Assembly: GCF_018139645.1 (NCBI RefSeq)
Contig: NZ_JAGSPM010000001.1
Location: 372,001-436,000, forward strand
Length of the DNA: 64,000 nt
Direction of reading: 5' to 3'
From: Affinundibacterium baiyunense
GTDB taxonomy: Bacteria; Pseudomonadota; Gammaproteobacteria; Burkholderiales; Burkholderiaceae_D
This document shows, in pieces, positions 26,466 to 39,575 of the stretch (within the stretch, counting starts at the first letter, position 1; each line of letters opens with the position of its first letter). A model generated the notes under the pieces. It had not been told where the DNA came from. It made no database searches and saw only the letters and a program-made list of their open reading frames with translations. The translations under genes and the position numbers were made by a program.

Positions 26466-28715
26466 ATGAATAACATGAATTCTGAAGATCCGTTTCTGTT
26501 CATCGAAGACGATGGAAACGCGAATCAAAGTGAAAGCGTTGCCGATCAAAATGTATGGAACATTTTGATTATTGACGACGATCCAGACGTGCATTCTGCA
26601 ACGATGTTTGCTCTGCATGACCTCAAAATTCTCTCCCGTAATCTGCATTTTCTACACGCATACACTACCGCTGAAGCAAGACAAATTTTGATCCATCAAG
26701 AAGACATCGCAGTGGTTTTGCTTGATGTCGTGATGGAAAAAGATAATACGGGTCTTCAATTAGTAACCTTTATTCGAGATACATTAAATCGACGAGATAT
26801 TCGGATTATTCTACGCACAGGTCAGGCTGGTTATGCCCCTGAGATTGATGCGATCCGCGACTTTGATATCAATGATTACAAAAACAAAACCGAATTAACA
26901 CAAGCGAAGCTGTTTACCGCGGTTACTTCAGCGATTCGGTCCTATCAACAAATTAGAATTATTTCGTCAAATAACGAAAGTTTAGAGTTGATTGTTGGCG
27001 CAGGTAGTTTATTGATGACAGTGAACACCTTGCCGTCATTCTCCAAACTCTTACTGGATTACATCATCGAGTTGTTACAGATCGATGTAGAGGGTTTTGT
27101 TTGCATCACAAATATTTCTACGTATGATCAAAATGTCGAATATGAGACTCAACTTGGTCCGCGCGTAATCGTTACCACTGAAAAATTTGAAAATTACGCA
27201 AATAAATTCTTAGCTTTAAATGGGCAAACCAACGAATTGCAGTTGGTGCAAAAGGCCCTATTCGAACAGAGACATTTATTTCACTCTCAGCAAACCGCGC
27301 TCTATCTCAGCAACTTAAATGGTTCCGCAATCGTGATTTATTTGGATCAGAGTCTTGAGGAAGCTCCATACGCAAGGCACATGATTGAACTATTTTGTAG
27401 CAATGCTTCGGTATGCTTGCAAAATGTGATGCTGAATTCAAAAATGCATAATCTGGCATTTCATGACCCATTAACAGGTCTGGCGAATCGACTGCAATTA
27501 CTGCAAAATTTACAGCAAATCTTGCATTCGCAACAGCGAGCCGACAGTGTACTTGCCTTAATTGACATCAATCATTTTGCGGAGACAAATGATGCACTCG
27601 GACATCGATTTGGAGACGTATTACTCCACAGTGTAGGACAACGATTGCGTGAACACTTTGCTGACAATTGCAAAATTGCGAGAATCGGCAATGATATTTT
27701 CGCGTTGCTTGGACACGAAGAGATCGTCTCACCGAAGCTAGTTTTGAGCCTATTTAGTACGCCTTTTTCAGTCGAAAATCAATCTGTTCAATTATCGGTG
27801 AGCTTAGGATTGCTACGCTTGTGCGACTACGAATTGAGCGCACCAGACGCATTAAAAGACGCGAATATCGCACTGAAAAGAACCAAGTCAGATCTACGCT
27901 CAGATCACACCTACTTCACGCGTGAAATGGGAGTTGAAATACGAGAACGCGTACGCATGATGCATGCCCTACGTGCTGCCTTTGAAGCTGAGCGCTTGTA
28001 TATCGTCTATCAACCACAAGTCGAAATCGGTAGCGGAAAACCATTCGGCGTAGAAGCCTTGCTGCGTTGGAAAAACGATGATGGTGAACTCATCCCACCA
28101 GATCAATTTATTCCTATCGCTGAGTATTCAGGTTTAATCGTCAATATCGGCGAATGGGTGTTGCGCACCGCATGTTTTGAATTAGTTCGCATTAGTGAAT
28201 TGGGGTTTCAACAATTCCGTATGGCAGTGAACGTCTCACAAGCGCAGTTTATGCATCCGCTGTTCTTGCAAATGCTAAAGCGTGCGCTGACTGATAGTGG
28301 CATTTCGCCGCAGAATTTAGAATTGGAAATCACAGAGTCGATGGCAATGACCGACCCTGAACTGGTGATCGCCAATCTAGAAAAAATAAAAGAAATGGGT
28401 GTAAGAATTTCGATTGATGATTTTGGTACTGGTTTCTCTTCACTTAGCCAACTACAAAAACTCAAGGTCAATAAATTAAAAATCGACCGTGCGTTTATCA
28501 ATGATATTTGTATCGGCACAGACGAGGGAAGTATCGCAAAAATGATCATCGAGCTCAGTCAAAGTTTGCAACTAGAAGTCATCGCTGAAGGTGTCGAGAA
28601 TCAGTTACAAGCAGACACATTAAGAACCTTTGGTTGTCATCATGCGCAAGGCTTTCTATTCGCGAAACCGAAAAACAAAAATGATCTGTATTCTTGGCTA
28701 GAGCAACACATCTAA
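26466..28715 (+). CDS. Receiver-DUF3369-GGDEF-EAL protein, probable c-di-GMP phosphodiesterase
   Basis: 749 residues with four parts: a receiver domain (about 30-160; IIDDDPDVHSAT, phospho-acceptor Asp in VVLLDVVMEKD, conserved Lys in DYKNKTEL), a GAF-like DUF3369 region (170-320), a GGDEF domain (335-480) and an EAL domain (490-749). The GGDEF signature is degenerate (ARIGNDIFALLG), so cyclase activity is unlikely. The EAL domain keeps its catalytic set: EALLRW near 529, ELEITES, DDFGTGFSS, KIDRAFI and AEGVE. Expected role: hydrolysis of c-di-GMP in response to phosphorylation by an unlinked kinase. No kinase gene is adjacent; the gene has its own terminator-isolated position. Confidence 0.93.
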   Translation: MNNMNSEDPFLFIEDDGNANQSESVADQNVWNILIIDDDPDVHSATMFALHDLKILSRNLHFLHAYTTAEARQILIHQEDIAVVLLDVVMEKDNTGLQLVTFIRDTLNRRDIRIILRTGQAGYAPEIDAIRDFDINDYKNKTELTQAKLFTAVTSAIRSYQQIRIISSNNESLELIVGAGSLLMTVNTLPSFSKLLLDYIIELLQIDVEGFVCITNISTYDQNVEYETQLGPRVIVTTEKFENYANKFLALNGQTNELQLVQKALFEQRHLFHSQQTALYLSNLNGSAIVIYLDQSLEEAPYARHMIELFCSNASVCLQNVMLNSKMHNLAFHDPLTGLANRLQLLQNLQQILHSQQRADSVLALIDINHFAETNDALGHRFGDVLLHSVGQRLREHFADNCKIARIGNDIFALLGHEEIVSPKLVLSLFSTPFSVENQSVQLSVSLGLLRLCDYELSAPDALKDANIALKRTKSDLRSDHTYFTREMGVEIRERVRMMHALRAAFEAERLYIVYQPQVEIGSGKPFGVEALLRWKNDDGELIPPDQFIPIAEYSGLIVNIGEWVLRTACFELVRISELGFQQFRMAVNVSQAQFMHPLFLQMLKRALTDSGISPQNLELEITESMAMTDPELVIANLEKIKEMGVRISIDDFGTGFSSLSQLQKLKVNKLKIDRAFINDICIGTDEGSIAKMIIELSQSLQLEVIAEGVENQLQADTLRTFGCHHAQGFLFAKPKNKNDLYSWLEQHI

Positions 28716-28804: not shown

Positions 28805-29413
28805 CTAGTCTTCTAATCCTTGAAAACATACTCGCAGCATGTTCTCCACGATCGCATTTGTATCCATCTTGCTAAATCGCTGCAAATATTCAACCGCTGG
28901 ATCACAGCTTCGTGCATAGTAACTAAACAGAATCACATCGGGACTCAATTTATTATTTAAGTCACCATTTTTTTGCGCAGCAATGACCAGTTTTTCTAAC
29001 TGAGAATTCAGTTTGATCACTCTTCCAACATATTTCAAATTGCGCATCAGCATCTCGCGCACCGCATTACTTGTGGACGGTAGAAATGGCAAACCACCAT
29101 CAAGACGCACTCGAAGTGCCCATTCTAATAACGCTGACAATTTTTCCTTCGCCGTGTATTCCGCTGGAAATGATTCAAGCTGTGTGGTGGCGCCATCGAG
29201 TAAGCGAATCATTGCAGCACCGACCAAATCTTCTTTGGACTTAAAGTGTTTGTATAGGCTGGGTTTGGAAATACCAATCAAATTGGCAACGTCGTCCATC
29301 GTCATTAAATCAAAGCCTTTGCTTGCAAGCACTGTGGTAGTAGCGTCAAGAATCGCATCTTCACGTAGACGAAAAGCTTGATCTTTAAAATTTAGTTTGC
29401 TAAAGATACTCAT
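28805..29413 (-). CDS. TetR family transcriptional regulator
   Basis: 202 residues. The N-terminal helix-turn-helix is clear: REDAILDATTTVLASKGFD, then MTMDDVANLIGISKPSLYKHFKSKEDLV, the conserved recognition-helix block of TetR proteins. The C-terminal ligand domain is variable and gives no inducer. It is divergent from the FAD oxidoreductase operon, with 211 bases between the start codons, and a perfect 14-bp palindrome lies 13 bases before its own ATG. It therefore most likely represses itself and the fatty-acid modification operon at 29625; that is inference from layout. Confidence 0.92.
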   Translation of the reverse strand: MSIFSKLNFKDQAFRLREDAILDATTTVLASKGFDLMTMDDVANLIGISKPSLYKHFKSKEDLVGAAMIRLLDGATTQLESFPAEYTAKEKLSALLEWALRVRLDGGLPFLPSTSNAVREMLMRNLKYVGRVIKLNSQLEKLVIAAQKNGDLNNKLSPDVILFSYYARSCDPAVEYLQRFSKMDTNAIVENMLRVCFQGLED

Positions 29414-29425
29414 AAGTATTAATAT

Positions 29426-29439
29426 CTACCAATTGGTAG
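29426..29439. promoter_or_regulatory. Candidate TetR operator
   Basis: CTACCAATTGGTAG is a perfect 14-bp palindrome, the size and symmetry of TetR-family operators. It sits 13 bases before the regulator's ATG, where binding would block its own promoter, and on the same intergenic stretch as the divergent operon promoter. Confidence 0.65.
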
Positions 29440-29624
29440 CGGTTTTTCCAAATCAGTATTAATCTTAACACCGAAGTATATGTCACACAATGCTTTCAGA
29501 CGGGTCAATTTATAAAACCCGATTCGATAGGGAAATTGAAATACTTAATTGGACGCTCAAAGTGTTCAACTAAGGGTTCAACCAAGCGACTAAACAAGCG
29601 TCAAATAAGTTAGGAAATCGTGTA

Positions 29625-30917
29625 ATGCATAAAAAACAAAAAATCGCGGTGATCGGTGCAGGCATCTCAGGCCTAGCAAGCGCCTATTTTTTACAGCGCC
29701 AACATGATGTAACTTTGTATGAAGCAAATGCCTATTTAGGTGGGCACACCAATACCGTCGAAATTGTTATTGACGGCAAAACCTTGGTCGTTGACACTGG
29801 ATTTTTAGTTTTTAATGACAAGACTTACCCTAACTTAATTGCCTTGTTTGCAGAATTAGGCATCGACAGTTACGGCACCGATATGTCTTTTGGCGTATCA
29901 CTAAACAATGGCGCACTAGAATGGGCTGGCACTAATCTCGATACCGTCTTCGCACAAAGAAAGAACATTTTCTCTCCATCGTTCTTGAGCATGATTAAAG
30001 ATATTCTGCGATTTAATCGTGATGCTGAAAGTAATCTGCAACGAAGTACCGAATCAGGAATCAGCTTAGGGCAATTACTCGTCGATCAAAAATACAATGC
30101 CGCTTTTGCGAATCATTATTTGATACCGATGGCGGCAGCCATCTGGTCAAGTTCACCAAAGGACATCTTAGATTTTCCAGCGCGAACTTTTTTACGGTTT
30201 TGTATCAATCACGCCTTACTCCAAGTGAATGACCGTCCACAGTGGCGCACTGTACAAAATGGTGCGCGCAGCTACGTCAGAAAAATCGCCGAAACTTTAC
30301 AAGATATTCGGCTCAATAGCCCTGTGAGCTCAGTAACACGTAGTGATCAAGGAGTTATGGTTACTAGCAATGGTAATTCCGAAAAATTTGATCAAGTCAT
30401 TTTTGCGACGCATGCACCAGATACACTGCGTATGCTAGCTGACGCGAGCGCAGCCGAATTGGCATTATTATCAAAAGTACGTTATCAGCCAAATACCGCT
30501 TATTTGCATACAGACAGCACTTTGTTGCCACGATCCAAGAAGGTTTGGAGTGCATGGAATTACATAGGAACTAGTGCAGACGCCAGTTCAACTTCAGGTT
30601 CGCCCCAATCTGTTTGTGTTAGCTACTTACTCAATCAGTTGCAACGTCTCGAGACAGAAACGCCCGTGATTGTGACCTTAAATCCAACTCATCAACCGAG
30701 GCAAGAATCGATATTTGCGCAATTTGAATATGACCATCCCGTGTTTGATCAAAGCGCGATCGACAGCCAAACAAATTTATCTAGCATACAAGGTACCAAC
30801 AAAACTTGGTTTGCCGGTGCGTGGACTGGCTATGGTTTTCACGAAGACGGATTGAAATCGGCATTACGTGTGGTGAAGCAATTTGATTTGAGTCCTGCTT
30901 GGGCTCGCATCGATTAA
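29625..30917 (+). CDS. FAD-dependent oxidoreductase (amine-oxidase fold), fatty-acid-modification cluster
   Basis: 430-residue flavoprotein. The dinucleotide-binding motif IAVIGAGISGLASAYFLQRQ is at residues 8-27 and continues into the YEANAYLGGHTNTVEI signature of NAD(P)/FAD amine-oxidase-like proteins. The C-terminal flavin motif reads TWFAGAWTGYGFHEDGLKSA. Homologues beginning this same gene string (with DUF1365, CFA-like methyltransferase) are annotated in many proteobacteria; in Rhodobacter a related flavoprotein takes part in furan fatty-acid formation, as I recall. The probable job is desaturation or oxidation of an acyl chain in membrane phospholipid. First gene of the operon, downstream of the TetR operator. 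Confidence 0.88.
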   Translation: MHKKQKIAVIGAGISGLASAYFLQRQHDVTLYEANAYLGGHTNTVEIVIDGKTLVVDTGFLVFNDKTYPNLIALFAELGIDSYGTDMSFGVSLNNGALEWAGTNLDTVFAQRKNIFSPSFLSMIKDILRFNRDAESNLQRSTESGISLGQLLVDQKYNAAFANHYLIPMAAAIWSSSPKDILDFPARTFLRFCINHALLQVNDRPQWRTVQNGARSYVRKIAETLQDIRLNSPVSSVTRSDQGVMVTSNGNSEKFDQVIFATHAPDTLRMLADASAAELALLSKVRYQPNTAYLHTDSTLLPRSKKVWSAWNYIGTSADASSTSGSPQSVCVSYLLNQLQRLETETPVIVTLNPTHQPRQESIFAQFEYDHPVFDQSAIDSQTNLSSIQGTNKTWFAGAWTGYGFHEDGLKSALRVVKQFDLSPAWARID

Positions 30918-30967
30918 TCGAGAATGAAACAACCGTTACGAAAACATAAAGAGAACGAAGATAAACA

Positions 30968-31768
30968 ATGGCATCGACACTAGTCAACGCTTTAGTAATG
31001 CACCAACGACTACGACCAGTCAAGCATCGATTCGTCTATCCAGTTTTTATGCTGAAGCTGGATATCGATGCACTAAGTGACATGTCGAAAGACCTTCCAA
31101 ACAGCGCAATATTTGGCATCAATTGCTGGCGTCCAATATCGATTCATACTGAAGATTACGGTCCACGTGATGGCTCTAGTTTGAAGGTCTGGATACAAAA
31201 TATTCTGAACAGGCATCAGGTACCAGAGATAGAAAAAGTTGAATTACTGAGTTTTCCAAGAGTATTTGGTTATGCCTTTAACCCCATTAGCATTTGGTAC
31301 TGCTATGACAAGCAATCACAACTTCGTGCTGTATTGGCAGAGGTGAATAACACTTTTGGTGAGCATCACTTTTATTTATTACAAGCTGTAGAACATGGTG
31401 TGATCGATACCAACACAGAATTGATGAGTACCAAAATGATGCATGTCTCTCCATTTTGCGAAGTAAAAGGACATTATCAATTTAAGTTTGCCGAAACCAC
31501 GAATAAATTGAAAGTACATATCGATTATCACGATGACCAAGCTACATTGCTGCAAACCGCCATCATCGGGAAAACACAACAACTTACATCTGGCAATTTA
31601 TTAAAGGCGCTCTGCAAGCAACCGCTACTTACATTTGGTGTGTTCTACCGCATTCATTGGCACGCACTAATCCTGTGGTTGAAGAAAGTCCCATTTCACC
31701 GTCAGGTCCATTTCACCAATCAACAAGTTTCGACTGGCACAACAATAAAACAGGAGCAGATTAAATGA
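30968..31768 (+). CDS. DUF1365 family protein
   Basis: 266 residues, no signal peptide. DUF1365 features: LVMHQRLRPVKHRFVYPVF near the start, LSFPRVFGYAFNPISIWYCYD in the middle, and VSPFCEVKGHYQFKF. The family is nearly always found between the FAD oxidoreductase and the CFA-like methyltransferase, as here; no biochemical activity is established to my knowledge. The conserved His, Tyr and Phe residues suggest a lipid- or cofactor-handling role, which is inference. Its stop overlaps the methyltransferase start (ATGA, 31765-31768), so expression is coupled. Confidence 0.88.
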   Translation: MASTLVNALVMHQRLRPVKHRFVYPVFMLKLDIDALSDMSKDLPNSAIFGINCWRPISIHTEDYGPRDGSSLKVWIQNILNRHQVPEIEKVELLSFPRVFGYAFNPISIWYCYDKQSQLRAVLAEVNNTFGEHHFYLLQAVEHGVIDTNTELMSTKMMHVSPFCEVKGHYQFKFAETTNKLKVHIDYHDDQATLLQTAIIGKTQQLTSGNLLKALCKQPLLTFGVFYRIHWHALILWLKKVPFHRQVHFTNQQVSTGTTIKQEQIK

Positions 31769-33006
31769 GTTCAATTCAAACCACCTCAAGTGCAATGACG
31801 AACAATTCGAATGCGATGAAGACATCTGCGATGCCGGCGAGTGCCCAATTGTTTATTCGCATGCTCAATAAAATCAAGCATGGCAATCTCCATCTAGTTA
31901 CACCGAGTGGCGATGTATTGAAATTCGGTGATCAACAACTTTCTCAGTCAGTTATTTTGACGATTCACGATTGGCAAGCTTGTCGGAAAATTCTGCAAGG
32001 CGGCGATATAGGATTCGCAGAATGCTATGAAGCAGGCTGGATTAGCACGAGCGATTTAACTGCTCTACTTCGCTTAGCAATTCAAAACGAGAATGCATTA
32101 GACAAGGCGATATTCGGCGGAAAATTAATGGGGCTATGGTACAAACTCAAACACTTATTACGCCCGAATACACGCAAAGGTAGTCGCAAAAACATCCATG
32201 CGCACTACGACATAGGCAATTCCTTTTATCAATTATGGTTGGACGCAAGTTGGACTTATTCTAGTGCGATTTTTTACGGTGATTACGACATCAGCTTGCA
32301 AGAAGCGCAGTACCGCAAATATCAGCGCATTATCGATGTGCTGGGTTTAAAAGCGGGAGATCGTGTTTTAGAAATTGGTTGCGGTTGGGGTGGATTTGCA
32401 GAACACGCTTCGACACGCGGGATTCATGTTCACGGCGTCACTATCTCGCCTTCACAATTAGAAATTGCAGAACAAAGAATCCAACAAGCGCAACGACAAG
32501 ATTTAGTCAAATTGGAATTGTGTGATTATCGTGATTTGAACGGCAGCTATGACGCGATCGTTTCGATCGAAATGTTTGAAGCAGTTGGTGAAGAATATTG
32601 GCCAACTTATTTCAAAACGGCAAATCAACGTCTGAAGCCAGGTGGCAAGGCGCTTATACAAACTATTACGATTGACGAAGCGCGCTTTGAACGCTATCGC
32701 AGCGGCACGGATTTTATTCAACAGTATATTTTCCCTGGCGGCATGCTGCCAAGCCCACCTCGCTTTGTGCAACTCGCACAGCAGCATGGTTTGCAAACGC
32801 ACGATCAATATGCATTTGGCAAAGATTATGCAGAAACTTTACGTCGCTGGAACCACGATTTTGAAAACAACATCGACGGTATTCATGGCATGGGTTTTGG
32901 CACCGCGTTCCAACGAATCTGGCAACTCTATTTCTCGTATTGCGAAGCGGGCTTTGATGAAGGTCGTACCGATGTTTATCAATTCTTATTACAGAAGAGT
33001 GCATGA
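31765..33006 (+). CDS. Cyclopropane-fatty-acyl-phospholipid synthase family SAM methyltransferase
   Basis: 413 residues. An N-terminal lipid-binding part (FADCYEAGWIS-like segment at about 85-100) is followed by the SAM-binding domain with VLEIGCGWGGFAEHA near residue 203 and SIEMFEAVGEEYWPTYF. The family blocks NIHAHYDIGNSFYQLWLD and FIQQYIFPGGMLPSPP are present. Compared from memory with E. coli Cfa, the bicarbonate ligands Cys139 and His266 are replaced by Ser (TYSSAIF) and Gln (IQTITI). That points to a methyltransferase making methyl-branched or methylene products rather than a classical cyclopropane synthase. Coupled by 4-base overlaps to genes on both sides. Confidence 0.9.
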   Translation: MSSIQTTSSAMTNNSNAMKTSAMPASAQLFIRMLNKIKHGNLHLVTPSGDVLKFGDQQLSQSVILTIHDWQACRKILQGGDIGFAECYEAGWISTSDLTALLRLAIQNENALDKAIFGGKLMGLWYKLKHLLRPNTRKGSRKNIHAHYDIGNSFYQLWLDASWTYSSAIFYGDYDISLQEAQYRKYQRIIDVLGLKAGDRVLEIGCGWGGFAEHASTRGIHVHGVTISPSQLEIAEQRIQQAQRQDLVKLELCDYRDLNGSYDAIVSIEMFEAVGEEYWPTYFKTANQRLKPGGKALIQTITIDEARFERYRSGTDFIQQYIFPGGMLPSPPRFVQLAQQHGLQTHDQYAFGKDYAETLRRWNHDFENNIDGIHGMGFGTAFQRIWQLYFSYCEAGFDEGRTDVYQFLLQKSA

Positions 33007-33578
33007 TGCGCAATTACTTGCCGATGCTTTTTTTAAGCTCAACACTACTTTGCTGCGCAGCAGGCGCACAGGCGCAAGTGTGGAAGCAACATTTGCCACA
33101 AGCAAAAATGCTTGGTGGTGGAGAATTTCGCTGGTGGGGATTTTCAATTTATACCGCAAGAATCTGGCAACAAACCCCAAATAAAGATGGCGGACTTGAT
33201 CAAAACGCGAGTTTTGCTCTAGAGATTACGTATAACAAATCCATTAGTCGCGAGCGATTTGTCGATTCCAGCATCGATGAAATCAAACGTTTACATGGTG
33301 ATAAATTTAATGCGGACAAATTAAAGTTATGGCGCCAATACATGGAAAAAGCCTTTATCGACGTAAAGTCTGGTGACCAGTTAATCGGTGTTTACTTACC
33401 TGGAACTGGCTGTCGCTTTTATAGCCAACAAACATTATTAGCAGAGATCCCTGATGAATCTTTTGCGAATGCTTTCTTCTCAATTTGGTTAGACCCACGT
33501 ACCAAAGACAATAACTTGCGCCAAAAATTACTGGGCAATAATAAATCTTCCGCTGCGAGCACGGATCCCTCAATGTGA
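33003..33578 (+). CDS. Exported chalcone-isomerase-like protein
   Basis: 191 residues with a signal peptide (MLFLSSTLLCCAAGAQAQV, cleavage near residue 24). The mature part has the chalcone-isomerase-like blocks GGGEFRWWGFSIYTARIW, EITYNKSISRERF and AFFSIWLDPRTKD. Bacterial members of this fold bind fatty acids or other hydrophobic ligands in the periplasm; enzymatic isomerase activity is not implied. It overlaps both neighbours by 4 bases. Two ATG codons in tandem (33003, 33006) can start it. Role in the cluster: perhaps chaperoning a modified lipid in the periplasm (inference). Confidence 0.85.
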   Translation: MMRNYLPMLFLSSTLLCCAAGAQAQVWKQHLPQAKMLGGGEFRWWGFSIYTARIWQQTPNKDGGLDQNASFALEITYNKSISRERFVDSSIDEIKRLHGDKFNADKLKLWRQYMEKAFIDVKSGDQLIGVYLPGTGCRFYSQQTLLAEIPDESFANAFFSIWLDPRTKDNNLRQKLLGNNKSSAASTDPSM

Positions 33579-34882
33579 AATCCGATGCGAAAACTAAAGT
33601 GAAAACTTCTGCGCTGATTTTTTATGGATTGTTAGGACTGCCATTAGCCATGGCTGCCTTGCCCGTGTATGTGCAAATTCCGAACTATTACACTGCGCAG
33701 TTAGGTTTACCACTGGCGACTACGGGTTTGGTATTATTTTTCGCCCGCATGTTTGATACAGTACAAGATCCATTCATCGGACAACTGGTTGATAAATTTG
33801 GCTCCAGCAATCGTCGCTGGATCATTTTCTCAGCCGCTTTACTCTGCCTAACTTTCGCGGGGCTGTGGCTGCCGCCTGCATTCGCGCGTGATTCCTCTAC
33901 TCTCTTATTGATCTGGTTAGGTGTCATGCTAAGCCTTGCCTACACTGCACACAGTATGCTCAATATCGCTTACTTGGCATGGGGTTCTAGCCTTGAGAAT
34001 CCGAGCGCAACTAAAGATAGTCAGCAAGACACAGCATATCATCAATTGCTTGGTGCATCGGCTTGGCGCGAGGCATTTGGCATGATCGGCGTCATCCTTG
34101 CGAGTATCATCCCGAGTTGGATTATCCTTCAAGACAAGAGCGCCGCCACGACGCAATTAAGTCAATATGCAATCGGTTTTACCGTCTTAGTCATGATCGC
34201 CATTTGTGCCTTGTTGATAGGTGCAGCCAGACCGTTGCGCCGCAGTGTTCATGCAGTCATTGCATTAGGCAGCTTGCTCAAGAATGCCCAGTTCGTCGCA
34301 CTATTGCGTATCTATTTCTTAAACTCTTTATCGGTTGCCATTCCCGCTAGTTTGATCCTGTTTTTTATCAATGACAGAATTCAAGCGCCTGAAAAAACTG
34401 CCCTCTTTTTATCATCGTACTTTACTGCTGGCGCTTGTGGTTTGCCCTTATGGGTCAAATTGGCGAAACGTATTGGTGCGCAACTTTCATGGCAATTAGG
34501 CATGTTGATTGCCGTACTAAGTTTTGTCGGTGCGAGCCTGCTTGGGGCTGGCGATGACTATGTTTTCTTGTTAGTTTGCATTGCTTCAGGATTGGCACTT
34601 GGTGCTGATTTAGCGCTGCCCCCAGTTTTACTCACAGTGGTAGTCAACGACAAACAAAATATGGGCGCCTATTTTGGTCTTTGGTCATTGATAGGAAAAT
34701 TTACTTTGGCACTTGCTGGACTAAGTTTATCGCTTCTTGCTCTACTGAGCTATCAACCAAACCAAGTTAATCAAACAAACGGTTTGTTAGCATTAACTTT
34801 TACCTATGCGGTTCTCCCCTGCGCTTTCAAATTGATCGCGCTCTTTTTACTTCGTCATTTTTCTAAGAGCATTTCATCATGA
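33575..34882 (+). CDS. MFS transporter of the fatty-acid-modification cluster
   Basis: 435 residues with about twelve hydrophobic segments. The loop FARMFDTVQDPFIGQLVDKFG resembles the GPH cation symporter (MelB-like) branch, with a central cytoplasmic loop near 190. A GTG start at 33575 overlaps the preceding TGA (GTGA), and the stop overlaps the lipoprotein start. MFS proteins of this type travel with the DUF1365-CFA cluster; whether it moves a lipid, a precursor or an efflux substrate is unknown. Confidence 0.87.
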   Translation: MKSDAKTKVKTSALIFYGLLGLPLAMAALPVYVQIPNYYTAQLGLPLATTGLVLFFARMFDTVQDPFIGQLVDKFGSSNRRWIIFSAALLCLTFAGLWLPPAFARDSSTLLLIWLGVMLSLAYTAHSMLNIAYLAWGSSLENPSATKDSQQDTAYHQLLGASAWREAFGMIGVILASIIPSWIILQDKSAATTQLSQYAIGFTVLVMIAICALLIGAARPLRRSVHAVIALGSLLKNAQFVALLRIYFLNSLSVAIPASLILFFINDRIQAPEKTALFLSSYFTAGACGLPLWVKLAKRIGAQLSWQLGMLIAVLSFVGASLLGAGDDYVFLLVCIASGLALGADLALPPVLLTVVVNDKQNMGAYFGLWSLIGKFTLALAGLSLSLLALLSYQPNQVNQTNGLLALTFTYAVLPCAFKLIALFLLRHFSKSISS

Positions 34883-35418
34883 TCAAAAAAATTCTATTCG
34901 CCCTAGGCGCAGTGTCATTCACTTTTTTTCTCAGCGCCTGTGCGATCACCGATGTGAATCACTATAAAGACGTTAAACCACAACTCGACCTAGAAAAGTT
35001 CTTCCTCGGCACAACCGATGCATGGGGCATGTTCCAACAAAGGAATGGTGCAGTCGTCAAACGTTTTCATGTAGTCATCGACACCAAAAAAATTGGCGAC
35101 GAGTTAGTTCTTGATGAGCGTTTCGTATATGACGATGGCAGCAAACAACAACGCATTTGGCGCTTACGTAAAAACGCCGATGGTCGCTGGGTCGGCAAGG
35201 CAGACGATGTGAAAGGCGACGCCCAAGGCGAGCTTGCTGGTAACGCCTTCAAATGGCAATACACTTTACTGTTACCAGTTGACGGTAGTGTATATGAAAT
35301 GGCGATGGACGATTGGATGTATCTAATCGATGAAAACACCATGGTCAATCGCGCCAAAATGAGCAAGTTCGGTTTTGAAGTGGGTGAAGTCACTTTATTT
35401 TTCCGTCGGAGAGGATGA
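34879..35418 (+). CDS. DUF3833 lipoprotein
   Basis: 179 residues. Type II signal: basic start (MIKKILFALGAVSFTFF) and lipobox LSAC with the acylated Cys at residue 21. The mature part has the DUF3833 blocks LDLEKFFLGTTDAWGMFQQR and MAMDDWMYLIDENTMVNRAKM. The position +2 residue after Cys is Ala, consistent with outer-membrane sorting by the Lol system. Function unknown; always reported in the same gene string. Overlaps of 4 bases on both sides. Confidence 0.88.
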   Translation: MIKKILFALGAVSFTFFLSACAITDVNHYKDVKPQLDLEKFFLGTTDAWGMFQQRNGAVVKRFHVVIDTKKIGDELVLDERFVYDDGSKQQRIWRLRKNADGRWVGKADDVKGDAQGELAGNAFKWQYTLLLPVDGSVYEMAMDDWMYLIDENTMVNRAKMSKFGFEVGEVTLFFRRRG

Positions 35419-36209
35419 TGCGACTCCCTTTCTTACAACCATTAAATAAGCCCATTCGGGATTGGCACGACCAAACTATTTGGATTATCGGTGCCTCTAG
35501 CGGAATCGGTGCTGCTCTGGCAAAGTCTTTGCTAAAGCTAGGTGCTCATGTAATCTTATCTGCACGTCGCCAGCACCATCTTGATTTGGTGGCAAATGAT
35601 CATCCACATGCACATGTATTGGCGTTTGATGTTGCAGATCAAAATAGCTGGAGCGAAGCTCAATCACTGTTACGAAAAAAGTATTCCAAGATTGATTTAG
35701 TGATTTTTTGCGCAGCCAAGTATCAACCAGAACGTAGTTGGGAAGTAAATGCCAATGATGCCGCTGACACCCTTAAAATTAATCTAGCAAGTGTTTATCA
35801 TGGATTGGGAACTGTTTTACCAAACATGCTTCAACAAGGCAAAGGCGGTATCGCGATTCTGGCCAGTGTAGCTGGTTATCTTGGTTTACCGAATGCCAGT
35901 GTGTATGGCCCGAGCAAGGCCGCACTGATTAATTTAACTGAATTGCTATACAGCGATTTGCACGAGAAAAATATCAACGTCTATTTGGTGAACCCAGGAT
36001 TTGTCAGTACCGAGCTCACCAGTAAAAATGATTTCACCATGCCCGCCTTACAAACACCGGAACAAGCATCGCAAGCGATACTCGACGGCATCGCAAATGG
36101 CGACTTTGAAATCCATTTCCCTAAACGTTTCACGATGGGACTGAAACTAATGCAGATGCTGCCTTATCGTTTGCGCTTTGCTTTGATACGGCGCTTTGTG
36201 ATCGCTTAG
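35415..36209 (+). CDS. Short-chain dehydrogenase/reductase of the cluster
   Basis: 264 residues, classical SDR. Cofactor motif GASSGIG at residues 26-32, NAG-equivalent region weak (FCAAKY), catalytic Tyr-Lys in YGPSK at about 165-169, and VNPGFVSTELT after it. The ATG at 35415 is preceded by GGAGAGG, a strong ribosome-binding site, and overlaps the DUF3833 stop. In other genomes an SDR is part of the same string; it may reduce or oxidise the acyl intermediate (inference). Confidence 0.9.
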   Translation: MMRLPFLQPLNKPIRDWHDQTIWIIGASSGIGAALAKSLLKLGAHVILSARRQHHLDLVANDHPHAHVLAFDVADQNSWSEAQSLLRKKYSKIDLVIFCAAKYQPERSWEVNANDAADTLKINLASVYHGLGTVLPNMLQQGKGGIAILASVAGYLGLPNASVYGPSKAALINLTELLYSDLHEKNINVYLVNPGFVSTELTSKNDFTMPALQTPEQASQAILDGIANGDFEIHFPKRFTMGLKLMQMLPYRLRFALIRRFVIA

Positions 36210-36267
36210 CTTGCAAGCTTAGATAACTCGTTTAGACCACGAATCGATACCTTTCTACGGACGCATA

Positions 36268-36693
36268 ATGACGACTCCACAAGTACAAAACATCATGGCT
36301 TGGTATGCAAATTTGAGCCCGACTAGCTTGCAAGATATTGCCAAGTATTATGCTGATGAGGCGCGATTTAAAGACCCCTTCAACGAAGTCCAAGGGCTTA
36401 AAGCTATTCGAGCGATTTTTGAGCACATGTTCGCCACCACGCAGTATCCTAAGTTCACATTTGAAGAAGTAATCGAGCAAGAGTCCAAAGTCTTCCTCAC
36501 CTGGCAATTTCACTTCGGCTTACGCGGCAAAAGCTATATCGTCAAAGGCGGCTCTATGCTGACTTTTGATGCGCAAGGCCTAATCATCGATCACCGCGAT
36601 TATTGGGACGCTGCTGAAGAGTTATGGGAGAAATTACCGATCGTAGGCGGATTAGTTGGATGGTTGCGGCGGCGGTTTAAGGTCACGATCTAA
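36268..36693 (+). CDS. NTF2-like / SnoaL-like protein
   Basis: 141 residues. The NTF2-like fold is indicated by FKDPFNEVQGLKAIRAIFEHMF, FLTWQFHFGLRGKSYIVKGGSM and the C-terminal IIDHRDYWDAAEELWEKLPIVG. Such proteins act as small isomerases or binding pockets; this member is annotated as nuclear transport factor 2-like in the same gene neighbourhood elsewhere. It begins 58 bases after the SDR and is the last plus-strand gene of the block. Confidence 0.83.
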   Translation: MTTPQVQNIMAWYANLSPTSLQDIAKYYADEARFKDPFNEVQGLKAIRAIFEHMFATTQYPKFTFEEVIEQESKVFLTWQFHFGLRGKSYIVKGGSMLTFDAQGLIIDHRDYWDAAEELWEKLPIVGGLVGWLRRRFKVTI

Positions 36694-36766
36694 GTCGCAA
36701 TTACAATCACAAGTAGACCAACAGGATTCAGATGTCTACTATGTTAAGCGAGGACGTCATTAAATT

Positions 36767-37204
36767 TTACACGTCACATGAAGCTAAGGCTTGCAATAGC
36801 GAAGATCCAAGATTCTCGTCGTTCTTATTACATCGAACAATTTTGTCCAAAAGGTCTTTGCCACCATTTTTTGAATATTCGGATGAAGGTGTGAGCGCGA
36901 TAATATATCCATCTTCTTGGATACCAACAGCCTTAGTACCTTTTGCGAGAGTTGCCCAAGTCCCTACTCCCACCGCTTCTAACATTGGTGCTTGAATTGC
37001 TTTCCACTGATCTTGAGAAGGGTGCGACAAATTGCAAACGGAATTTAGTAAAGCTGCATTAATTTTTGCACCTATCTCAGCATGTGAGTCAGCAAAATTG
37101 GCGACATATACAGGACCATTTGCGACCCAAAGTTTTGTAACCGTTTCAGCATAGCCTTGAACATAAATCTTGCCTTTACGAAGAAAGACTGTTGCTAGTT
37201 TCAT
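36767..37204 (-). CDS. Unrecognised small protein, possible Ntn-hydrolase-like or immunity-like
   Basis: 145 residues from the ATG at 37202-37204 (a TTG directly before it would add one residue). No signal peptide and no family I can name with confidence. The sequence opens MKLATVFLRKGKIYVQGYAE, then shows VYVANFADSHAEIGAKINAAL and WATLAKGTKAVGIQEDGYII, a soluble alpha-beta pattern. The composition is protein-like and the opposite-strand frame there is a shadow. It is followed by a convergent NTF2 gene and preceded by another orphan gene, so the two could be a small accessory pair. Confidence 0.6.
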   Translation of the reverse strand: MKLATVFLRKGKIYVQGYAETVTKLWVANGPVYVANFADSHAEIGAKINAALLNSVCNLSHPSQDQWKAIQAPMLEAVGVGTWATLAKGTKAVGIQEDGYIIALTPSSEYSKNGGKDLLDKIVRCNKNDENLGSSLLQALASCDV

Positions 37205-37272: not shown

Positions 37273-37692
37273 TTACTCTTGCGCGAAATGATTTACCCAT
37301 AAATTTGCGTCGCCCCAACCGACAAGATAGTCGTGATGATTAAAACAAACGAGGTAATTAAATGCAATGTCGCACACATAAAATTCAAATGGTGGGCATT
37401 CTTGAAGAATCAACATTAAATCCTTACCGCTACCAAGTCTCCATACTGCCGATGCGCTTGTCGTCATCAACAAACAGCTTTCCCCCCCAACAAAGGAAGG
37501 TATTAATTTCCACCCATCGTGATTCAATACGCCATCTGGAGCGTCAAATTTATCCCATGGTGAATGTGAGCTAACGTCAACTCTTAATCGTTCGCACAAA
37601 CAATCAACCACACCTTCTCGCTCATGTGACGATAACAGTTTAGCTGACACCCTAGTGGTGACTACAGCAGCCGCAATAACTTCATTGATCAC
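37273..37692 (-). CDS. Unrecognised small soluble protein
   Basis: 139 residues from a GTG at 37690-37692 that overlaps the stop of the MFS-acyltransferase gene (GTGA), which suggests coupled translation; a TTG two codons earlier is the alternative. No signal peptide or membrane span. Features: WDKFDAPDGVLNHDGWKLIP, then FEFYVCDIAFNYLVCFNHHDYLVG and a C-terminal WGDANLWVNHF. Trp/Phe/His-rich small proteins of this style occur among polymorphic-toxin immunity families, but I cannot assign one. Confidence is in the coding call, not in any function. Confidence 0.55.
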   Translation of the reverse strand: MINEVIAAAVVTTRVSAKLLSSHEREGVVDCLCERLRVDVSSHSPWDKFDAPDGVLNHDGWKLIPSFVGGESCLLMTTSASAVWRLGSGKDLMLILQECPPFEFYVCDIAFNYLVCFNHHDYLVGWGDANLWVNHFAQE

Positions 37693-39575
37693 TTCCAATC
37701 CCCACGCAACTCCTTCACCTGCTGCTGTAGACTTTCTGGTGAAATTTTCTCTGGATCTTGTGGCTCCCCCACCACTAACTCCAAACGAGAAAATGGTCCA
37801 CGACGGAATGAGCGATGGAAAGGATTTCCCTTATCTCGTGACAACAAACTACCCCAGAGACCGCGTAAGGCCATAGGAATCACCGGCACAGGCGTGCGTT
37901 CAACGATTTTCATCACGCCTCCTTTAAACTCATTGATTTCACCATCGCGGGTGAGTTTGCCTTCAGGGAAAATGCACACCAAATCACCTTCATGCAATGC
38001 TTGCGCCACATCGATAAACGATTTTTCCATCAACCAAGGATTTTCCTTTGCGGGCGCAATCGGAATTGCTTTCGCAGTACGAAATACCCAAGACAGAAAT
38101 GGAATCTTAAAAATATTATGATCCATCACAAAGCGTATCGGTCGTGGGCTATACGCCATGATGACAATTGCATCCATATAGCTGACATGATTGCAGACTA
38201 ATACAGCCGCCCCCTCGTCTGGAATTTTATCAACATTGACACCCTTCACTCTGTGCACGGTATGAATCAAAATCCAAGCGACAAAACGCATTAAAAATTC
38301 TGGCACTACGCTGAAAATGTAGATCGCTACCAAGGCGTTCAAAATTGCGGTTGCCATAAAAATCTGTGGAATGGTAAATCCTTGCTTCAACATTAGCATC
38401 GCAGCTAAAGCAGCGACCACCATGAATAAGGCATTCATGATATTCATGCCGGCAATCGTGCGCGATAGATGTTTAGGATCACAACGTGTTTGAATCAAAG
38501 CGAACAAGGGGACGATATACAAGCCGCCGAAGATACCTATCATAAAAATATCGAACAAGATTTTGTAGCTACCGACTTGATCGATAAAACTCATCGCGGT
38601 CACCGCTGCAGTGTTGGTGTACATCAAACTCGACAGATACAAATCGAAGCCAAAGATCGACAAACCGATAGCACCAAATGGCACCAGACCAATTTCCACT
38701 TTATGTCCAGATAATCGCTCACACAACAATGAGCCGGCACCTATACCAAAAGAAAAAATCGTCAGTAACAAAACAAAAACACTATGGTCGCCGTGCAGAT
38801 AATCTTTGGCATAGAGTGGAAATTGCGCGAGTAAAATTGCGCCGTAAAACCAAAACCAAGAGTTCGCCAATAAGGATAAGAAAACCGGACGATTCTTTCT
38901 GCTAAAGCTGATGTTACGCACTGTTTCGGTGGCTGGATTCCAGTTGATCTTTAGATTGGGGACGGGTGCGGGTGAAACAGGAATGCGTAAGCTAAACAAC
39001 CAACCCAAGACCGCAATCAAAATACATCCACCAGCGACCGACTCAACGCCCCAGGGCTTATGCACGACCAACATGGCACCTAAAATTTCGCCTAAAAGAA
39101 TACCGACAAAGGTACCCATTTCAATCACGCCATTGCCACCGACTAACTCATCCGAACGCAAATGTTGTGGCAAATAAGCGTACTTGACTGGGCCAAACAA
39201 AGTCGAATGAATACCCATGCCAGCGACAGCCGCCACCAAAATCCAAATGTTTTTGCTCATCCAACCATAGGCTGCAATTGCCATGATGGCGATCTCTAGC
39301 AATTTAACGTAACGCGCAACCTTTCCTTTTTCAAACTTGTCAGCTAATTGGCCGGATGTCGCTGAAAACAACACGAAAGGCAAAATGAATAATCCAGGAA
39401 TAAGATTATTCAACAAGCCTACGTCCAACGTAGTCCAAGTCAAAGCATCGTAAGTCAAAACGGTCAGTAAAGCCGTTTTAAACACATTGTCATTAAATGC
39501 CCCAAAAAATTGCGTCCAAAAAAACGGCGCAAAGCGGCGCTCTTTCAATAGGGTGAACTGGCTGTGTTGGCTCAT
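37689..39575 (-). CDS. MFS transporter fused to 1-acylglycerol-3-phosphate acyltransferase (LplT-Aas-like)
   Basis: 628 residues. Residues 1-420 form an MFS domain with about twelve spans (FNDNVFKTALLTVLTYDALT at the start, as in LplT). Residues 430-628 are a PlsC-type acyltransferase with the catalytic NHVSYMD near 459 and FPEGKLTRDGEINEFKGGV. In E. coli, LplT flips lysophospholipid inward and Aas re-acylates it; Aas also carries an acyl-ACP synthetase domain that is lacking here. The expected role is lysophospholipid uptake and repair, so acyl-ACP or acyl-CoA must come from another enzyme. Preceded by the hairpin at 39612. Confidence 0.92.
   Translation of the reverse strand: MSQHSQFTLLKERRFAPFFWTQFFGAFNDNVFKTALLTVLTYDALTWTTLDVGLLNNLIPGLFILPFVLFSATSGQLADKFEKGKVARYVKLLEIAIMAIAAYGWMSKNIWILVAAVAGMGIHSTLFGPVKYAYLPQHLRSDELVGGNGVIEMGTFVGILLGEILGAMLVVHKPWGVESVAGGCILIAVLGWLFSLRIPVSPAPVPNLKINWNPATETVRNISFSRKNRPVFLSLLANSWFWFYGAILLAQFPLYAKDYLHGDHSVFVLLLTIFSFGIGAGSLLCERLSGHKVEIGLVPFGAIGLSIFGFDLYLSSLMYTNTAAVTAMSFIDQVGSYKILFDIFMIGIFGGLYIVPLFALIQTRCDPKHLSRTIAGMNIMNALFMVVAALAAMLMLKQGFTIPQIFMATAILNALVAIYIFSVVPEFLMRFVAWILIHTVHRVKGVNVDKIPDEGAAVLVCNHVSYMDAIVIMAYSPRPIRFVMDHNIFKIPFLSWVFRTAKAIPIAPAKENPWLMEKSFIDVAQALHEGDLVCIFPEGKLTRDGEINEFKGGVMKIVERTPVPVIPMALRGLWGSLLSRDKGNPFHRSFRRGPFSRLELVVGEPQDPEKISPESLQQQVKELRGDWK

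Follow-up and report, generated by a model that had tools for sequence, protein, structure and literature searches.

A 64,000-nucleotide stretch of the genome of Affinundibacterium baiyunense (NCBI RefSeq assembly GCF_018139645.1, contig NZ_JAGSPM010000001.1, positions 372,001 to 436,000 of the forward strand; this whole stretch is termed the window) harbors a gene cluster of the ufaD-ufaO-ufaM type with five accessory genes. The cluster is predicted to produce a furan lipid and to be repressed by a divergently encoded TetR-family protein through two palindromes, a reading to which we assign a probability of roughly 0.68. The enzymes are not new, since the furan fatty acid pathway has already been published; the new part is the TetR switch over known enzymes. 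In the literature searched, of which, as of all papers cited here, excerpts were consulted, a TetR switch on a furan fatty acid operon was not found. According to these excerpts, bacterial furan fatty acids have so far been studied within the singlet-oxygen response, and ufaM clusters as light-induced genes. A third switch over the same genes, found in several places, makes the role of furan lipids without a light signal testable in a freshwater genus. The tetR gene and the eight genes of the operon are arranged in the window as follows.

28805-29413, minus strand: tetR, TetR-family protein, predicted repressor, divergent from the operon (Pfam TetR_N)
29625-30917, plus strand: ufaD, flavin adenine dinucleotide (FAD)-dependent oxidoreductase, predicted UfaD-like desaturase (Pfam Amino_oxidase / NAD_binding_8)
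30968-31768, plus strand: DUF1365 protein, predicted to be UfaO-like (PF07103, 260 bits)
31765-33006, plus strand: predicted UfaM-type S-adenosylmethionine methyltransferase of the CMAS/CFA family (PF02353, 279 bits)
33003-33578, plus strand: Chalcone_3 (chalcone-isomerase-like) protein with an N-terminal leader recognized by eye (PF16036, 57 bits)
33575-34882, plus strand: MFS_2 carrier (PF13347, 173 bits), with weak PDB matches to MelB
34879-35418, plus strand: DUF3833 protein with the lipobox LSAC, recognized by eye (PF12915, 226 bits)
35415-36209, plus strand: short-chain dehydrogenase/reductase (SDR; PF00106, 141 bits)
36268-36693, plus strand: SnoaL_2 / NTF2-like protein (PF12680, 62 bits), which comes after the SDR gene in the recurring string

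The window genes likely comprise the ufaD-ufaO-ufaM furan fatty acid core together with Chalcone_3, MFS, DUF3833, SDR, and NTF2-like genes, as judged from their families and order. The initial annotation had named seven to eight co-directed genes of these families and a membrane-lipid operon of the furan fatty acid kind; the open reading frames and Pfam domains agree with it, and the three core families are present and adjacent in the order D-O-M. The four-base overlaps that it reported are also present, with the number six referring to genes and not to joints: six genes share five joints, each ATGA or GTGA. The FAD gene is separated from the DUF1365 gene by 50 bp and the SDR gene from the NTF2-like gene by 58 bp. 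For comparison, 161 neighborhoods were annotated (160 fetched plus the window), with profiles built from the neighborhoods and clusters named by Pfam scans of representatives. The gene string is not a chance arrangement, since DUF1365 directly follows ufaD in 160 of the 161 and the eight-gene string recurs in other genera; ufaD, DUF1365, and the methylase gene are adjacent in D-O-M order in 140 of the 161, as they are in the window. DUF1365 occurs in 153 of 398 genomes in a phylum sample, 120 of 250 of an order sample, and 37 of 43 of the genus. It is present as a single copy in the window's genome, and its closest named match is the 97% identical protein of Undibacterium macrobrachii. A terminator-like site was not found at 36150-36900, and the sequence therefore does not define the 3' end of the transcript.

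Enzyme activities are assigned here from the genes, by analogy to characterized proteins of Rhodobacter sphaeroides and their replacements from Rhodopseudomonas palustris. In R. sphaeroides, 18:1 chains are methylated by UfaM and converted to a methylated diene by UfaD; UfaO, which contains DUF1365, turns this diene into a furan with oxygen from O2 (PMC7380195). The R. palustris homologs, which are arranged in the order D-O-M, are able to replace the R. sphaeroides genes (PMC7380195). By this analogy, phospholipid-bound cis-vaccenoyl chains would be the substrate that the UfaM-like enzyme methylates. A conjugated double bond would come from the UfaD-like flavoprotein, and the DUF1365 protein would form the furan by inserting oxygen taken from O2. 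Overall, the double bond of membrane 18:1 chains would become a methylated furan ring. As a matter of arithmetic only, the published methyl esters of the diene (308.2) and the furan (322.2) differ by +O -2H, which corresponds to O2 in and H2O out, so the DUF1365 step needs no net reductant. The authors state that no reductant had to be added to the UfaO reaction (PMC7380195). The DUF1365 step could be a redox-neutral, cofactor-poor reaction in which diene and O2 yield furan and H2O.

The methylase carries a sequence signature that favors methylation without ring closure. The ligands of the catalytic bicarbonate in Escherichia coli cyclopropane fatty acid (CFA) synthase are Glu239, His266, and Tyr317 (PMC11387697). 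In the window methylase Glu239 and Tyr317 are kept and His266 is replaced by Gln; Ser stands at the position of Cys139, and Ile268 is kept. In an alignment of 145 operon-type methylases and 22 other CFA-like neighborhood proteins, with E. coli CFA (L203) as reference, Gln replaces His266 in 144 of the 145 operon-type proteins. Glu239, Ile268, and Tyr317 are invariant in all 145, and position 139 is occupied by Ser or Ala in 139 proteins, by Cys in 5, and by Gly in 1. The sole operon-type protein with His266 is a second methylase in L183, which keeps Cys139 too. The other CFA-like group (cfa2, n=22) has His266 in all members and Phe at 268. In six genomes of family f68, ufaD-ufaO stands without an adjacent methylase gene, and one strong methylase per genome is encoded away from the operon; all six of these unlinked methylases have Gln266 and Ser139. 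With Gln in place of the bicarbonate-ligand His, the cation would lose a neighboring proton to give a methylated alkene, not a cyclopropane. Checking a sequence for Gln266 may make it possible to tell UfaM-type methylases apart from genes annotated as cyclopropane synthases. The next CMAS match in the window's genome reaches 38.7 bits and lacks the CFA motifs; with no other strong CMAS match in the genome, a lack of cyclopropane chains is predicted.

A second operon kind, of the MerR type, is seen in eight loci (L081, L083, L084, L086, L087, L090, L094, and L097). All eight have, before ufaD, genes for a CFA-like protein with His266 and Phe268, DUF2878, DUF1295, and a fatty acid desaturase, and seven of the eight have a lipocalin gene. 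This operon kind possibly makes a different modified lipid.

TetR is linked to the operon both by the position of its gene and by a conserved palindrome that it is predicted to bind. It matches TetR_N at 56 bits against a cut-off of 24, and its AlphaFold2 (AF2) model consists of helices throughout, including the sensor domain (predicted local distance difference test score 91.5). A divergent tetR beside ufaD (261-355 bits) is found in 39 loci, including the window, in which the two genes lie back to back. In the fortieth TetR locus, the short contig L072, the neighborhood profiles found tetR and the remaining operon genes but not ufaD. The region between tetR and ufaD in the window contains three elements.

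29406-29419, no strand assigned: operator-like site 1, ATACTCATAAGTAT, over the tetR start codon, with core ACTCATAAGT; conserved in alignment A3
29426-29439, no strand assigned: operator-like site 2, perfect palindrome CTACCAATTGGTAG, with its core in 36 of 39 tetR-ufaD intergenic regions
29456-29470, plus strand: conserved block, possible ufaD -10 region; conserved in alignment A3

The cores of sites 1 and 2 are 20 bp apart, and two core sites 20-21 bp apart are present in 15 of 20 group A loci, the window included. Conservation of site 1 is partly coding, since its left half codes for Met-Ser-Ile. Of the three loci outside the 36 with the core ACYNATNRGT between tetR and ufaD, L056 has a variant palindrome, and L045 and L096 lack the core. 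In 100 shuffles the core occurred in a mean of 0.56 and a maximum of 3 of the 39 loci. Among 121 control loci without a called tetR, in each of which a stretch of about 240 bp upstream of ufaD was covered, the core occurs once, in L069, where the contig breaks off within tetR; it is absent from four complete Undibacterium loci without tetR (L043, L061, L063, and L065). These four loci, with neither tetR nor palindrome, have a glutathione peroxidase gene near ufaD. The sequence CTACYNATNRGTAG occurs without mismatch at one place in the 4.27 Mb genome, which is site 2.

The recognition helix of the TetR protein and the palindrome vary together across three subgroups. Subgroup A, which has the helix SKPSLYKHF and includes the window protein (ISKPSLYKHF), has CTAC[CT]AATT[AG]GTAG and variants; subgroup B (IAKGSLYKHF, plus L092) has GTGACTGAT[CG]AGTCAC and variants; and subgroup C (L112 and L118) has TGAACTCATCAGTTCA. 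ACYNATNRGT is the core that the three palindromes share. In the proposed mechanism, TetR would occupy two sites, site 1 on the start codon of its own gene and site 2 next to the ufaD promoter, and would thereby shut tetR and the operon together.

TetR is one of three regulators found beside related operons. Counted within the fetched stretches, this TetR is present in 40 of the 161 loci, a LitR-like MerR in 40, ChrR in 47, and none of these in 34, and no locus has two regulator kinds once a weak TetR hit in L170 is dropped. The initial annotation proposed TetR in place of RpoE/ChrR. The proposed replacement agrees with the data: ChrR (TIGR02451) has no match in the window's genome (99.45% complete), and tetR is tied to the operon as described above. 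ChrR is above cut-off in none of 41 genomes (the window's and 40 relatives), 20 of which have weak matches, and in 102 of the 398 genomes of the phylum sample. RpoE/ChrR as the other arrangement does not hold within the same order, where it is present in 2 of 45 loci and LitR-like MerR in 29 of 45 instead. The full eight-gene string occurs with TetR in 10 of 31 genus loci and 6 of 9 same-order loci, and with MerR in 14 of 29 same-order loci. The two LitR-like MerR members checked (L105 and L137) carry B12-binding regions. A LitR-like MerR is not encoded beside the window operon; elsewhere in that genome there is one match at the level of the helix-turn-helix (HTH) domain (46.6 bits, 348-amino-acid frame). 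A full-length match to the L105 protein was found in 0 of 43 genus genomes, and an HTH-only match in 12, the window's genome included. The sigma-E promoter TGATC-N16-18-CGTAW is a weak test of membership in the RpoE-ChrR (ECF11) regulon, since only 10 of 47 ChrR loci have it with 0 or 1 mismatch; the best site in the window has 3 mismatches in 10 positions, and 2 of 39 TetR loci have a site with 1 mismatch. Photolyase genes are near 0 of 40 TetR loci, 12 of 40 MerR loci, 15 of 47 ChrR loci, and 10 of 34 others. The comparison of TetR with MerR and ChrR combined (27 of 87) gives a Fisher p of 1e-5, not corrected for kinship, and within the same order the counts are 0 of 40 for TetR and 4 of 29 for MerR.

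This TetR and the LitR-like MerR appear, from sequence comparison, to have replaced each other several times. On an unrooted tree of UfaD and UfaO (70 rows; quick IQ-TREE run with Shimodaira-Hasegawa-like approximate likelihood ratio test (SH-aLRT) support), the TetR rows fall in four places, with at least 8 label changes: L092, the position of which is not settled; the window clade with other subgroup A rows; L112 and L118 of subgroup C; and the other Undibacterium operons of subgroup B, nested among MerR rows. A single TetR clade was rejected by the approximately unbiased (AU) test (p-AU 2.6e-42; 22 TetR rows against 26 others), with at least 5 changes on this smaller tree. Since the trees are unrooted, they do not give the direction of each swap. 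The presence of two non-sister operon lineages inside one genus points to operon transfer. Since TetR is found here, and light- or singlet-oxygen-type regulators are found beside many related clusters, an oxidative-stress lipid has probably been rewired to a different signal.

The signal to which TetR responds may be linked to a conserved cysteine. Cys170 of the window protein is within R168-x-C170-D171-P172, and in the AF2 model it is located at a break between two sensor-domain helices. The cysteine, in the motif R-x-C-D-P, is kept in 38 of 38 alignable TetR proteins of the 39 and in all three subgroups; the remaining protein, from L077, is cut short. Cys196, the other cysteine of the window protein, varies among copies. 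Inactivation through cysteine is described for the TetR repressor DitR and, by citation in the same paper, for NemR (PMC9342713). The initial annotation had set singlet oxygen aside as inducer; that exclusion is not demonstrated, since TetR, with an invariant cysteine in its sensor domain, may respond to oxidation or to an electrophile. With modest confidence, we propose that the inducer is an oxidized or electrophilic lipid which, acting at or near Cys170, would release TetR. A glutathione peroxidase gene (Pfam GSHPx) is near 16 of 40 TetR loci, 7 of 40 MerR loci, and 5 of 34 loci without a regulator. This neighbor weighs little for an oxidation signal, since all 16 TetR loci belong to one Undibacterium lineage, the window has no such gene, and MerR and regulator-less loci have it too. 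In one Undibacterium genome both tetR (L077, 6430-6924) and DUF1365 (pieces at G014 C1:2435877-2436594) are broken, through either decay or sequencing error.

Several points weigh against the TetR-repressed furan lipid operon proposed here. The loci used to define the core are also those in which it was counted; L075, L076, and L114 have it only at the tetR-start site, half of which is coding, and without them the count is 33 of 39. Many of the 39 TetR proteins are close relatives. At one mismatch, CTACYNATNRGTAG occurs at 13 more places against 46 for the reversed control, so this count speaks neither for nor against a wider TetR regulon. A sigma70 consensus promoter was not found at 29380-29640, and site 2 is about 185 bp from the ufaD ATG. 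The Gln266 signature is drawn from the operon-type and the six unlinked methylases, a set apart from the characterized UfaM proteins. Arg168, Asp171, and Pro172 are as conserved as Cys170, so the cysteine may belong to a structural motif, and the TetR-type stress repressor CssR does not use its cysteine residues for redox sensing (PMC8176726).

The four complete Undibacterium loci that have the operon and no tetR would fit a TetR that regulates only itself or distant genes, with the operon under other control, as would the lack of a consensus promoter beside the sites. The palindrome is gone from those same four loci, however, and it lies between both genes in nearly all TetR loci and at the only mismatch-free site in the genome, which makes separate control of the operon improbable. 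Still less probable is that the methylase is an ordinary CFA synthase and the operon serves general membrane hardening. Its CMAS score of 279 bits and its best NCBIfam rows, which are CFA synthases, agree with such a role, but all of the rows shown are below their curated cut-offs. The substitutions at His266 and Cys139, the retention of Cys139 in the L183 copy with His266, and the retention of His266 throughout cfa2 argue for a different reaction, and methylated alkenes are the substrates of its partners UfaD and UfaO.

The strongest competitor, held at somewhat under even odds, accepts the furan lipid and differs in the ligand: TetR would sense a non-oxidized molecule, such as acyl-CoA or a free fatty acid, as FadR and FasR do, and the switch would follow fatty acid supply. 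The operon acts on acyl chains, and the top rows of a Foldseek search with the TetR model include B. subtilis FadR, a C. perfringens fatty acid regulator, and FasR. These FadR-type rows are mixed with TetR proteins of other ligands (RutR, DarR, and AibR) at 13-25% identity, so the fold says little about the ligand. One conserved cysteine kept through three DNA-specificity groups, although together with its neighbors, argues against this ligand class, and the GSHPx genes near 16 of 40 TetR operons are weak support for an oxidation signal.

The fullest form of the cysteine-based proposal is that a one-cysteine TetR family took over the operon from a LitR-type light sensor several times and provides furan lipids on demand upon modification by lipid electrophiles. 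This form is speculative and, taken as a whole, rather unlikely. If true, the trait would be freed from light and a loop would be closed, with the damaged membrane itself triggering its antioxidant lipid.

Comparison with known systems is consistent with known enzymes under a different switch. In R. sphaeroides, RSP1091-1087 and ufaM belong to the RpoE-ChrR (ECF11) regulon (PMC7380195, PMC6852236). UfaD, UfaO (DUF1365), and UfaM are shared with the window, as are three further genes with lengths fitting MFS, DUF3833, and SDR, in the order seen in L191, L195, L196, L198, L200, and L201. In contrast, R. sphaeroides ufaM is unlinked and the switch is sigma-E/ChrR (PMC7380195, PMC6852236), whereas the window string includes ufaM, Chalcone_3, and NTF2-like genes and lacks ChrR. 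The operon of the f68 genomes (chrR, rpoE, ufaD, DUF1365, MFS, DUF3833, SDR) seems to fit RSP1091-1087 by gene number and length. R. palustris RPA2571-2570-2569 shares the ufaD-ufaO-ufaM order, and these genes jointly make 9M5-FuFA in R. sphaeroides (PMC7380195); a TetR or an accessory tail is not part of the published description in the excerpts consulted. The light-inducible LitR/PmlR1 cluster of Pseudomonas has an FAD oxidoreductase, an SDR, UfaM, and hypothetical genes near LitR (PMC9758184), but it differs in its light switch and in a photolyase gene of the kind absent from the TetR operons. The FadR/FasR regulators share an acyl-lipid context and the overall fold of the modeled TetR. Identity in the Foldseek rows is low, at 16-20%, so the likeness is one of fold, and the NCBIfam scores of the window TetR fall well short of the cut-offs for FasR (34.1 of 330 bits) and Bacillus FadR (23.1 of 200 bits).

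By analogy with R. sphaeroides, the core chemistry can probably proceed without the five accessory genes. Single deletions of RSP1087, RSP1088, and RSP1089 left the fatty acid profile unchanged (PMC7380195), and by order and length these genes look like the SDR, DUF3833, and MFS counterparts. Since each is dispensable for fatty acids, the accessory genes probably have their function downstream of synthesis or alongside it, where they likely serve to handle or repair the lipid or the products of its oxidation. Among 36 genus loci, MFS is present in 13, the chalcone-isomerase-like and DUF3833 genes are within about 110 bp of each other without MFS in 20, and 3 are cut contigs; the 20 loci indicate that MFS is not essential to the operon.

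Two neighbors of the locus complete the picture of the region. A gene for a response regulator with DUF3369, GGDEF, and EAL domains adjoins tetR (26466-28715, plus strand). Beyond the operon lies a gene for an MFS and acyltransferase fusion (37689-39575, minus strand), which by its domains we take to be LplT-Aas-like, and a lysophospholipid carrier may thus be encoded close to the operon.

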